NCBI GenBank assembly: GCA_027060825.1
Contig: JALSWC010000234.1
Span: 1-32,521, forward strand
Direction of reading: 5' to 3'
DNA length: 32,521 nt
Source of the DNA: Sulfurimonas sp.
GTDB lineage: Bacteria; Campylobacterota; Campylobacteria; Campylobacterales; Sulfurimonadaceae
The notes beneath the pieces were generated by a model. That model was not told the DNA's origin and did no database searches. It was given only the letters and a program-made list of their open reading frames with translations. Positions 11,297 to 28,608 of the stretch are shown here, piece by piece (position 1 is the stretch's first letter; each line of letters opens with the position of its first letter). A program made the translations under genes and the position numbers.

Positions 11297-12691
11297 TTAT
11301 CTTGTTAAGAAAAAGAGAAATTTGTCATTATCAAAAGAGAGATCAACTTGCACTCCTTTTTTTTCTCCTGCTACTTCTAAAAGACCCTGAATATTTTTAT
11401 ATGTTCGTGGTAGCGTAATGTTAATATGTATATTTTTATCTGAGAGGAGTGTTTTTATTTTTCCTCCGACAATGTTTACAAGTTCGGCAAGGGTGTCTAA
11501 AATAAGTTCTAAATCATCAGTACTCTCACCAATTAAAAGCTCACATGCCTTTTTTGCTATATCAATAGGAAAAACAAGCATTACCATTCCATCAATATCG
11601 CCATAAAATCCAATGGAACTTGCTATTTTGTTTTCTGGATTTTTAATTTTAATTTTATCTACATTAGCAGCTTCTTTAATTGCCTTTGCATTTGTCATCA
11701 TCTCTATTGTTGCTACAGTCGCATCAACAAAATTTGCTAGTTCTGAAACGATTACCTTGTTAAGGGAACGCTTGTTCTTTCCTCCTGTTGCGCTGCTTGC
11801 ACCAAGTTCATCAAGGAGTTCTTTATTTTCTAAAATGTCATTCATCTGCTCAAAAAAGAGTATGCCAGAATCTTCAAGCGTTTCTTTAAAAGTTATAGGA
11901 GTCTTTTCAAAGGTCATACCTACAAAACAGATAGTAGCATTATATTCTGCCGCAGCAGAGGCTAATTTGGAAAAAAAGTTGAGTGCATGAACATTCATAC
12001 TTACTACTTTATAAGCATCAAATATAAAGAGTCTAAAACCTACATTCAAAGAGTTGTTATGATATGCTATGTTAAAGGTATTACCCATTTCAGCATCAAG
12101 AAATGAAGAGAGGGTATATATAATGGCATTGCCCGTTACTCGTGTCGCTACTTGTTGCCCCATCTGTCCTAAATATGACTCATCTACAATTACATCATAA
12201 GCATCTTTATTTTTTACTTTTTCTAGAAATTCTTCTTGAGATTGAGCCACTATTGGATTGTGTCCATTATCATGCAGTTCAATGGCCATAGCTGTTCTTT
12301 GAGATTTATCATCACTATAAAGCAGTACATTTTTTTCTTGATTTTTATAACCATTAGAGAAAAGATTTGCAATCTCTTGTGTCTTAAAAAGTGAAAATGT
12401 AAGTTCATTTTTGTAAAACTTTTGTATGGCTTGGTACTTTTTCGTGTCATAATCACAAAAACCTACTATTATATGCTTGGTACTACGAACTTTATTGAAC
12501 ATTTTTATAAAAGTATCAAGCCCATTACGATTAAAAAATACTACTCTTTTTAGTGATACGAGTATAATATCTGCATTACTTTTGAGGGTTGCATTTATGT
12601 CATCGATGCTTAAAAGTGCTGTGCTTGAATTGCCATCTAAAAAACCTTGCGGATAAAAAACACCTATGCCATTTTTTACTACTGCTCTCAT
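11297..12691 (-). CDS. STAS / receiver-like / CheX multidomain signalling protein
   Basis: Four regions can be read. Residues about 5-110 (GVFYPQGFLDGNSS, RVVFFNRNGLDTFIKMF) look like a STAS domain. Residues about 118-215 (VLLYSDDKSQ, DVIVDESYLG) resemble a receiver domain, with an acidic pair after strand 1 and an Asp at the strand-3 position, though the match is weak. Residues about 220-300 (VVSMNVHALNFFSKLASAAAEYNATICFVGM) look like a second STAS domain. Residues about 310-464 are CheX-like, with the ExxN phosphatase signature in LAELVNIVGGKIK (about 402-405). CheX proteins dephosphorylate CheY-P in chemotaxis. The ATG overlaps the stop of the upstream HDOD gene as ATGA, so both are translated together. 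Its true target is unknown; a scaffold linking a phospho-signal to an anti-sigma-type switch is only an inference. Confidence 0.75.
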   Translation of the reverse strand: MRAVVKNGIGVFYPQGFLDGNSSTALLSIDDINATLKSNADIILVSLKRVVFFNRNGLDTFIKMFNKVRSTKHIIVGFCDYDTKKYQAIQKFYKNELTFSLFKTQEIANLFSNGYKNQEKNVLLYSDDKSQRTAMAIELHDNGHNPIVAQSQEEFLEKVKNKDAYDVIVDESYLGQMGQQVATRVTGNAIIYTLSSFLDAEMGNTFNIAYHNNSLNVGFRLFIFDAYKVVSMNVHALNFFSKLASAAAEYNATICFVGMTFEKTPITFKETLEDSGILFFEQMNDILENKELLDELGASSATGGKNKRSLNKVIVSELANFVDATVATIEMMTNAKAIKEAANVDKIKIKNPENKIASSIGFYGDIDGMVMLVFPIDIAKKACELLIGESTDDLELILDTLAELVNIVGGKIKTLLSDKNIHINITLPRTYKNIQGLLEVAGEKKGVQVDLSFDNDKFLFFLTR

Positions 12692-13485
12692 GAAATTTCC
12701 ATGAGTTGTGCAAAATCATCATATATCTCTTGCACATACTCTATTTGAAAATCTATAAAATCATTGAGTCCTGCGTTTATATATTCAGGTTTTGAAAGTG
12801 TAAAAAAGAGCAGTAGATGCATCCATTTTCCAAGCCTATTTATCTGCTCATCTTTTGATGGCTTCATACCACTTGAAGCCTGTACAATAAAGGCACTTTT
12901 TTTACTCATATTCCATTTTGTAGCTATTATTTGGCAGATGTCAAAGAGATCTAGACTGCAAAGTCTTATAAGAATAGTATTGAGATCAATCTCATTTACA
13001 CTACGAAGGAGTTTTACATCATCAAGCTTTTCGCAAAAAAGTGCTTCAGAGACAATGATGCTTGCAGGAAGTAGGGTAATGGCATTTTGAATCTCTTTAT
13101 CGTTAATATTAAGATGTGTGAGAATCTTTTGCCATTGTATTGAAAACTCTGCTTGTAGATCATAAAAGGAGCTTCTATTGAGTGCAAAGAGTTTCCATTT
13201 GGAAGGAGATAAAAGTGAAATCATATAGTTATAAACTGCTTGTTGTGAACGCGCAACACCTAAAATTCCAAAAATTTGAGAAACATCCTCTACTTCATTT
13301 CTAAATCCAAAAATTGGCTTATTTACAAGCTCCGTAAGGTAAGCGCTGAGTGCTAAATCTTTTTTTGCACTTAGTGCAGCTTTGGTTAACTCCCCTTGTT
13401 GAAGGTAGAGTACAGTTTGTTGTAGTGCCTGCGGTGCTGGAGGAATTTTTTGAATATATGCATCGACTTTCTCTTTTGTAATCAA
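12688..13485 (-). CDS. HDOD-domain signalling protein
   Basis: Residues about 12-120 (IPPAPQALQQTVLYLQ, DLALSAYLTELVNKPIFGFRNEVEDVSQIFGILGVARSQQAVYNYMIS) match the HDOD output domain, an HD-related fold lacking the metal-binding His/Asp pairs and used in bacterial signalling. The remainder is helical. 265 aa. Start is TTG with AGGAA five bases upstream. It overlaps the STAS/CheX gene by 4 nt, a strong sign of a functional pair. HDOD proteins affect motility and chemotaxis in several Campylobacterota as I recall, which agrees with a CheX partner, but no other chemotaxis gene lies in this window. Confidence 0.78.
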   Translation of the reverse strand: MITKEKVDAYIQKIPPAPQALQQTVLYLQQGELTKAALSAKKDLALSAYLTELVNKPIFGFRNEVEDVSQIFGILGVARSQQAVYNYMISLLSPSKWKLFALNRSSFYDLQAEFSIQWQKILTHLNINDKEIQNAITLLPASIIVSEALFCEKLDDVKLLRSVNEIDLNTILIRLCSLDLFDICQIIATKWNMSKKSAFIVQASSGMKPSKDEQINRLGKWMHLLLFFTLSKPEYINAGLNDFIDFQIEYVQEIYDDFAQLMEIS

Positions 13486-13502
13486 ATGATTCCTTTTTGT
13501 AG

Positions 13503-27459: not shown

Positions 27460-28608
27460 GTGTTAGAAAAGTTTTTAGAAAATAAACCACTCTATTATGA
27501 TGAAATTGACTATATGCGTATGCCTAGAATTTATGCAAAGATTAAAAATAGAGTAAAGATTCCTAAAATTATTCACCTTGTAGGTACAAATGGAAAAGGA
27601 ACAACAGGACGCTTTTTAGCTTCTGCTCTTTGTTCACTTGGTTTCTCTACTGGTCACTACACTTCTCCTCATATTTTAGAATTTAATGAACGCATCTGGT
27701 TTAATGGCAAAAATATTGCAACAAAAGAGTTAGATAAAGCACATAAAGAGTTGCTCCAGTTACTCTCAAAAGAGGATGCAGATGCTTTAAGCTATTTTGA
27801 ATATACAACACTTATAGCACTTTTATGTTACCAAGAGTGCGCTTATATAGTGCTTGAAGCTGGTTTAGGTGGGGAGTATGATGCGACTGCTGTTTTTGAC
27901 AATATACTTACCTTAGTAACACCAATAGATTTTGACCATGAAGCTTTTTTGGGAACAACTATAAAAGAGATAGCTACCACAAAACTAAACGCAGTAAAAT
28001 CTAGTGCAATTTTAGCTTTGCAAGTGCATAAAGAGGTTTATGCAGTTGCAAGGGAAATTACAGCGAAAAAGTCACTTAAAATTGTTTTATGTACAGAGTA
28101 TCTAAACGCAGAGGATGAAACAAAAATCGCTCAGATTACAAAAGAGCTTGATCTTGTAGAGTATTTGCAAGATAATCTCAAACTTGCCATTGCTGCACTA
28201 AAATTTTTAGGTATTACTTATGAGGCTAAGAATTTTTTTCATGCAAAACTTTTTGGAAGACTCTCAAAATTAAATGAAAATATTTATATTGATGTAGGAC
28301 ACAATACTTTGGCAGCAAGTTCCATTGTAAAAGCACTACAAGGGAAAAAATATATACTTATTTACAATAGCTACCGTGATAAAAATTATAAAGAAATTTT
28401 GAGGATTTTAAAGCCTATTGTTGAAAAGGTTGAAATAATTAGAGTTGATGAAGATCGAATTGAAGCATCTTCTGTTTTAAAAGAGACTCTTAGTAACTTA
28501 GGGATAAAACAGAGTGGTTTTACTGCTATAGATGCAAACGAGAAATATTTAGTCTTTGGCTCTTTTAGCGTGGCAGAAACTTTTTTAAGGAATTATTACT
28601 ATGGATAA
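27460..28608 (+). CDS. folC: Bifunctional folylpolyglutamate / dihydrofolate synthase
   Basis: Adds glutamate to folates (and in many bacteria joins dihydropteroate to glutamate). Mur-ligase-like fold: ATP P-loop HLVGTNGKGTTGRFLAS (about 40-55), GHYTSPHILEFNERI, EAGLGGEYDATAVFDN and ITPIDFDHEAFLGTT-type motif (TPIDFDHEAFLGTTIKEIA), IDVGHNTLAA at the C-domain. 382 aa, slightly short but complete. Start is GTG two nt after the preceding stop; the nearest GGAG is about 14 nt upstream, so coupling is likely. It overlaps the next gene by 8 nt. Confidence 0.94.
   Translation: MLEKFLENKPLYYDEIDYMRMPRIYAKIKNRVKIPKIIHLVGTNGKGTTGRFLASALCSLGFSTGHYTSPHILEFNERIWFNGKNIATKELDKAHKELLQLLSKEDADALSYFEYTTLIALLCYQECAYIVLEAGLGGEYDATAVFDNILTLVTPIDFDHEAFLGTTIKEIATTKLNAVKSSAILALQVHKEVYAVAREITAKKSLKIVLCTEYLNAEDETKIAQITKELDLVEYLQDNLKLAIAALKFLGITYEAKNFFHAKLFGRLSKLNENIYIDVGHNTLAASSIVKALQGKKYILIYNSYRDKNYKEILRILKPIVEKVEIIRVDEDRIEASSVLKETLSNLGIKQSGFTAIDANEKYLVFGSFSVAETFLRNYYYG

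Follow-up and report, generated by a model that had tools for sequence, protein, structure and literature searches.

CheX, the CheY-P phosphatase of T. maritima and B. burgdorferi, is a stand-alone protein of ~155–170 amino acids. In a survey of Campylobacterota chemosensory systems, CheX is again stand-alone, with the cheX gene of the F3 class lying upstream of fliN and fliO, and STAS and HDOD are absent from the main text (PMC9321776). HDOD proteins alter swimming in other bacteria, by a mechanism that is not given in the reports concerned (PMC11004494, PMC11813219). Our literature search, which covered mostly open-access texts without supplements, found no paper joining HDOD, CheX and STAS. 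Nor did it find a description of the domain order considered here, which the earlier note on this DNA had not known from any described protein.

The locus is a pair of genes in a 32,521-nucleotide stretch of Sulfurimonas sp. DNA (contig JALSWC010000234.1; all of it hereafter called the window). One gene encodes an HDOD protein and the other a fusion of STAS, receiver-like and CheX modules. The pair is probably an undescribed accessory part of the chemotaxis system and not a chance arrangement, because the two genes are kept together and are confined to species with a chemotaxis system.

Organization of the gene pair and its products

The genes overlap by 4 bp, the stop of the first and the start of the second sharing ATGA, and the window sequence confirms both this overlap and the extent (11297–13485) reported earlier. 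The features of the locus are as follows.

13490..13498, minus strand: putative ribosome-binding site AAAAAGGAA upstream of the HDOD start codon, likely from its sequence
12688..13485, minus strand: gene for the HDOD protein, 265 amino acids, TTG start, upstream member of the pair
11297..12691, minus strand: gene for the STAS–half-receiver–STAS–CheX fusion, 464 amino acids, downstream member of the pair
12362..12691, minus strand: STAS1, residues 1–110 (SpoIIAA profile match; Pfam match in relatives; STAS topology in the model)
12176..12337, minus strand: half pseudo-receiver at best, residues 119–172, β-α-β-α-β (profile matches and model)
11798..12151, minus strand: STAS2, residues 181–298, missing from the short form (Pfam match in a relative; STAS topology in the model)
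11300..11764, minus strand: CheX domain, residues 310–464 (Pfam; Foldseek to CheX)
11474..11485, minus strand: ExxN active-site motif, E403-L-V-N406 (GAA CTT GTA AAC), from the sequence

From its N to its C terminus, the fusion thus reads STAS, half receiver, STAS and CheX. Pfam assigns CheX to residues 357–450 of the window protein (E = 1e-13) and STAS to residues 3–71 under the cut-off (E = 0.0038). STAS1 exceeds the curated cut-off in relatives (L037, residues 13–103, E = 1.4e-10; also L039 and L020), as does STAS2 in L034 (residues 180–261, E = 1.4e-7); among 37 family members, 33 have STAS matches and 31 have CheX matches. Searched against solved structures, the family profile finds CheX chains at residues 310–457 and SpoIIAA at residues 4–71 (E = 9e-4). 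The AlphaFold model of the fusion (mean pLDDT 83) comprises a STAS domain, a small β-α-β-α-β unit, a second STAS domain and CheX, whose relative placement is uncertain because the pTM is 0.59. A Foldseek search with this model returned CheX first (T. maritima 1squ/1xko, E = 2e-10, TMt 0.74–0.77), followed by CheC/FliY/FliM and then by STAS anti-sigma-factor antagonists. Model and search therefore recover both the STAS and the CheX folds, and the earlier description of two STAS-like regions and a CheX domain with an intact ExxN motif (ELVN at residues 403–406) is borne out.

The degenerate receiver-like region of that description survives in part, as the remnant of an N-terminal half but not as a complete receiver. 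It spans ~55 residues and only β1–β3 (residues 121–169 in the model). Query residues 120–175 of the family profile align with chain residues 3–59, the N-terminal half of CheY/PhoP (E = 0.05–0.9), and the Response_reg match in a short relative (L052) covers profile positions 1–52 of 111 (E = 0.008). No Asp is conserved at the phospho-acceptor position among aligned relatives, and hhalign gives the region a probability of 11% against receivers. A full (βα)5 receiver was rejected on these grounds. Receiver alignment A4 comprised five receiver sequences, two of them taken from the beginnings of translations. The middle unit is at best a half pseudo-receiver, with weak sequence support, in which conventional phosphorylation is not possible.

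The partner carries a Pfam HDOD match at residues 19–202 (E = 2.1e-8). Its AlphaFold model is all-helical (pLDDT 88), and the best Foldseek matches (3hc1, 1vqr [Cj0248], 3mem and SadB 9qzk) are all HDOD structures. Alignment A2 shows no conserved HD pair at the metal site (conservation reaches 70% in the best His column), and we therefore read the protein as a non-enzymatic partner. HDOD proteins in general occur in 293 of 298 genomes of the class, so that family alone is useless as a marker. The orthologues of the window protein form a separate group, scoring >180 bits with the family profile, as against ≤60 bits for other HDOD proteins.

The pair is surrounded by housekeeping genes (rpe, which follows the fusion gene, trpF and an exonuclease-like gene). 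As the earlier note had remarked, no other chemotaxis gene lies nearby: the 12 window proteins scanned and the neighbours read include none. This is not counter-evidence to a role in chemotaxis, because in Campylobacterota genomes the F3-class cheX, cheY and cheZ genes are themselves dispersed (PMC9321776). Across 108 regions upstream of the HDOD gene, CGATWT occurs in 6, below the expected 16; of two sigma-54-like patterns, the first is in excess (7 regions, 1.7 expected) and the second is not (4 regions, 6.8 expected). From these counts, no sigma-28 or sigma-54 promoter was convincing and both were rejected. A TATAAT-like −10 element is common there. Elsewhere in the window, a CsgG/LpoB-like protein is encoded near the start (1056–2120; Pfam CsgG, E = 6e-14), and a 382-codon open reading frame amid housekeeping genes (27460–28608) has no Pfam match at E ≤ 1e-5.

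Conservation of the pair and its link to chemosensory arrays

Of the 298 genomes of the class, 115 contain a relative of the fusion at E ≤ 0.001, with a few matches that are weak and confined to the CheX part; the closest named relatives, in Sulfurimonas MAGs, are 87–94% identical. No relative was found in the plasmid collection. In a sample of 131 aligned fusion proteins that is Sulfurimonas-heavy and includes a few short-form copies, 115 have an HDOD orthologue at the same locus, and in 103 of these 115 the overlap is exactly 4 bp. The two genes thus recur together, and conservation in more than 100 genomes argues that the arrangement is more than chance. Twenty genomes of an 80-genome panel carry the HDOD orthologue, and every one of them also has the full-length fusion (Fisher p = 2.5e-13; this and the other profile counts and p values given here are raw, with genomes treated without regard to phylogeny). 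Seven of the 27 panel genomes with a full-length fusion have no HDOD orthologue, so that HDOD depends on the fusion and the fusion does not depend on HDOD. The orthologue is unlinked, lying between rnhA and rnc, in three genomes of family f5 that carry the fusions L035, L037 and L039 (L070:5452-6228, L071:5466-6242 and L072:5390-6217).

Several variants were observed. In one genome, the usual pair (L025) is accompanied by another full-length copy of the fusion gene, divergent and with no HDOD gene next to it (L054:5763-7178). Stops or split frames disrupt the fusion gene in a single-contig genome of the same genus whose HDOD gene is intact (G356:C1:673235-674627), and likewise in one genome of family f5 (L058:5542-6884). 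A short relative of 345–358 amino acids lacks STAS2, retains ExxN and has no adjacent HDOD orthologue; it shares some genomes with the full-length protein. Its loci are:

L050:6034-7110, L051:6251-7303, L052:5897-6940 and L053:5725-6777
L055:5914-6951, L056:5984-7042 and L057:3771-4817

In the panel, 27 genomes have a full-length fusion and 3 a short one; all 30 encode CheW, whereas the fusion is absent from all 16 CheW-negative genomes (Fisher p = 3e-4). It is also missing from 34 of the 64 CheW-positive genomes. When a CheV-sized protein, recognized by the length of its frame and by where its match falls in the CheW table, and not by a profile of its own, is used as a rough F3 marker, the split for the fusion is 30/0 versus 18/32 (p = 1e-9). 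The strongest control comes from within the genus, among 85 genomes at least 90% complete: the fusion occurs in 80 of 81 CheW-positive genomes (one, that of G356, is broken) and in 0 of 4 CheW-negative ones (p = 2.5e-6), and HDOD in 78 of 81 and 0 of 4, respectively. The assembly of the sole CheW-positive exception (G345) is fragmented and contaminated, and two further genomes without HDOD (G316 and G338) have the fusion at the end of a contig. All three CheW-negative genomes examined, of the four, keep FliG, so the array, more than the flagellum, seems to be what the fusion is linked to; within the FliG-positive panel genomes alone, however, fusion and CheW are not significantly associated (p = 0.25). 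This co-occurrence supports a chemotaxis role for the pair. In this phylogenetic profile, a kind of check that the earlier note had proposed, the fusion tracks CheW and HDOD tracks the fusion.

Catalysis and possible functions

Of the 131 aligned proteins, 117 have an intact ExxN and 13 an altered one; the remaining protein, a broken copy, lacks the motif. The altered full-length proteins are L030, L031 and L033, together with L034, L036, L038, L041 and L044–L049, which make up a putatively Campylobacter-like group. The motif is kept throughout the sampled Sulfurimonas-type group and in L026–L029, L032, L035, L037, L039, L040, L042 and L043 from other families. The source genome of the window also encodes a CheZ homologue (a single stop closes its frame at the edge of the match; the Pfam profile for CheZ lacks the strength needed for a survey in these genomes), a FliY-like protein adjoining fliM and a stand-alone CheX of 141 amino acids (L060:5902-6327), whose gene precedes fliN- and fliO-like genes. 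Because all are present together, the idea that the fusion replaces CheZ or the F3 CheX was rejected, and with these proteins available it is unlikely that the fusion acts as the main CheY-P phosphatase.

Our preferred explanation, held tentatively, is that the pair is a two-protein module serving the Campylobacterota F3 chemosensory system, with CheX as phosphatase or adaptor and HDOD as its partner. The CheX domain would dock on a phosphorylated receiver, either CheY-P or the CheV/CheA receivers that act as phosphate sinks in the F3 class, and, judging from the motif, would remove the phosphate where ExxN is intact. Because none of them has a conserved phospho-site, the STAS modules and the half receiver are best read as protein-binding modules, which may position the CheX activity. 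The co-translated HDOD protein would carry or receive the output. In lineages that have lost ExxN, the fusion would work as a binding adaptor only. Somewhat more guardedly, we suggest an F3 component, phosphatase or adaptor with a dedicated HDOD, that is near-universal in chemotactic Sulfurimonas and may be drifting to a dead adaptor elsewhere. We count several points against the preferred explanation: the ExxN losses, the coexisting CheZ, CheX and FliY, the CheW-positive genomes that have no fusion, the lack of adjacent chemotaxis genes and of a convincing sigma-28 or sigma-54 promoter, and profile counts uncorrected for phylogeny.

Some of these points would suit an array or motor adaptor without catalytic activity, in which the CheX fold docks or dimerizes, as the CheC-like fold does in FliM/FliY, and the phosphatase is vestigial or secondary. 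ExxN has been lost several times while the protein was retained, two genomes pair an ExxH or ExxY full-length copy with a short paralogue that lacks STAS2 and has intact ExxN (L030/L055 and L031/L056), the genome has other CheY-P phosphatases, and Foldseek also gives FliM middle domains and FliY. However, retention of ExxN in the Sulfurimonas-type group and in members from other families needs a selective reason, and we consider this explanation unlikely, though a serious competitor. Less probable by far is a phosphatase or adaptor through which the chemosensory phosphate pool would act, by way of HDOD, on an output other than motility, such as gene expression or surface behaviour. HDOD has been named an output-type domain, and the pair has neither a flagellar-type promoter nor flagellar neighbours; yet no output target is visible among the housekeeping neighbours, and the panel genomes in which the full-length fusion has no HDOD imply that it can act alone. 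The earlier suggestion of a route from chemotaxis phosphate to another output is not established, and it is weakened by the ExxN losses, by the presence of CheZ, CheX and FliY and by the half receiver. A stressosome-like or anti-sigma-factor partner switch built on the STAS modules is very improbable despite the STAS1 match to SpoIIAA, as the defining Ser/Thr is absent from the phospho position of the common forms in the 131 proteins (NRNG/NKNG in STAS1, NIHA/NVHA in STAS2), which led us to reject a STAS phospho-switch, and no kinase or PP2C neighbour was seen.

Comparison with described systems

If the module serving the F3 system is real, HDOD would be a direct chemotaxis signalling partner. 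The reports on HDOD proteins and swimming cited above give no mechanism, and an overlapping, co-inherited partner of the CheX family offers a concrete, testable link. The pair would add a part to the F3 class, which is common to Campylobacter and Helicobacter relatives, and the fusion would be a CheX protein apparently shifting from enzyme to adaptor.

With CheX of T. maritima and B. burgdorferi, the fusion has in common the CheX fold and ExxN. In the fusion, however, CheX is the C-terminal third of a protein of four modules and, from its motif, appears catalytically degenerate in some lineages, unlike the T. maritima/B. burgdorferi type. The F3 CheX belongs to the same phylum, chemosensory class and CheX family (cheX-fliNO; PMC9321776), but the fusion gene is not placed upstream of fliN and fliO, a site held by the separate 141-residue CheX gene. 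CheC-family FliY and FliM are related in fold to the CheX domain; unlike the fusion, they have no STAS modules and are structural parts of the motor switch. SpoIIAA and other STAS anti-sigma-factor antagonists share the STAS fold with modules that, in the fusion, are without the phosphorylatable Ser/Thr. Cj0248 (1vqr), GsmR, SadB and PSPTO_4229 share the HDOD domain and are among the proteins that affect swimming (PMC11004494, PMC11813219), and the Cj0248 and SadB structures match our model, whereas the present HDOD protein is tied to the fusion and stands apart from them by bit score. We regard the fusion as a CheX-family variant with a new dedicated partner.
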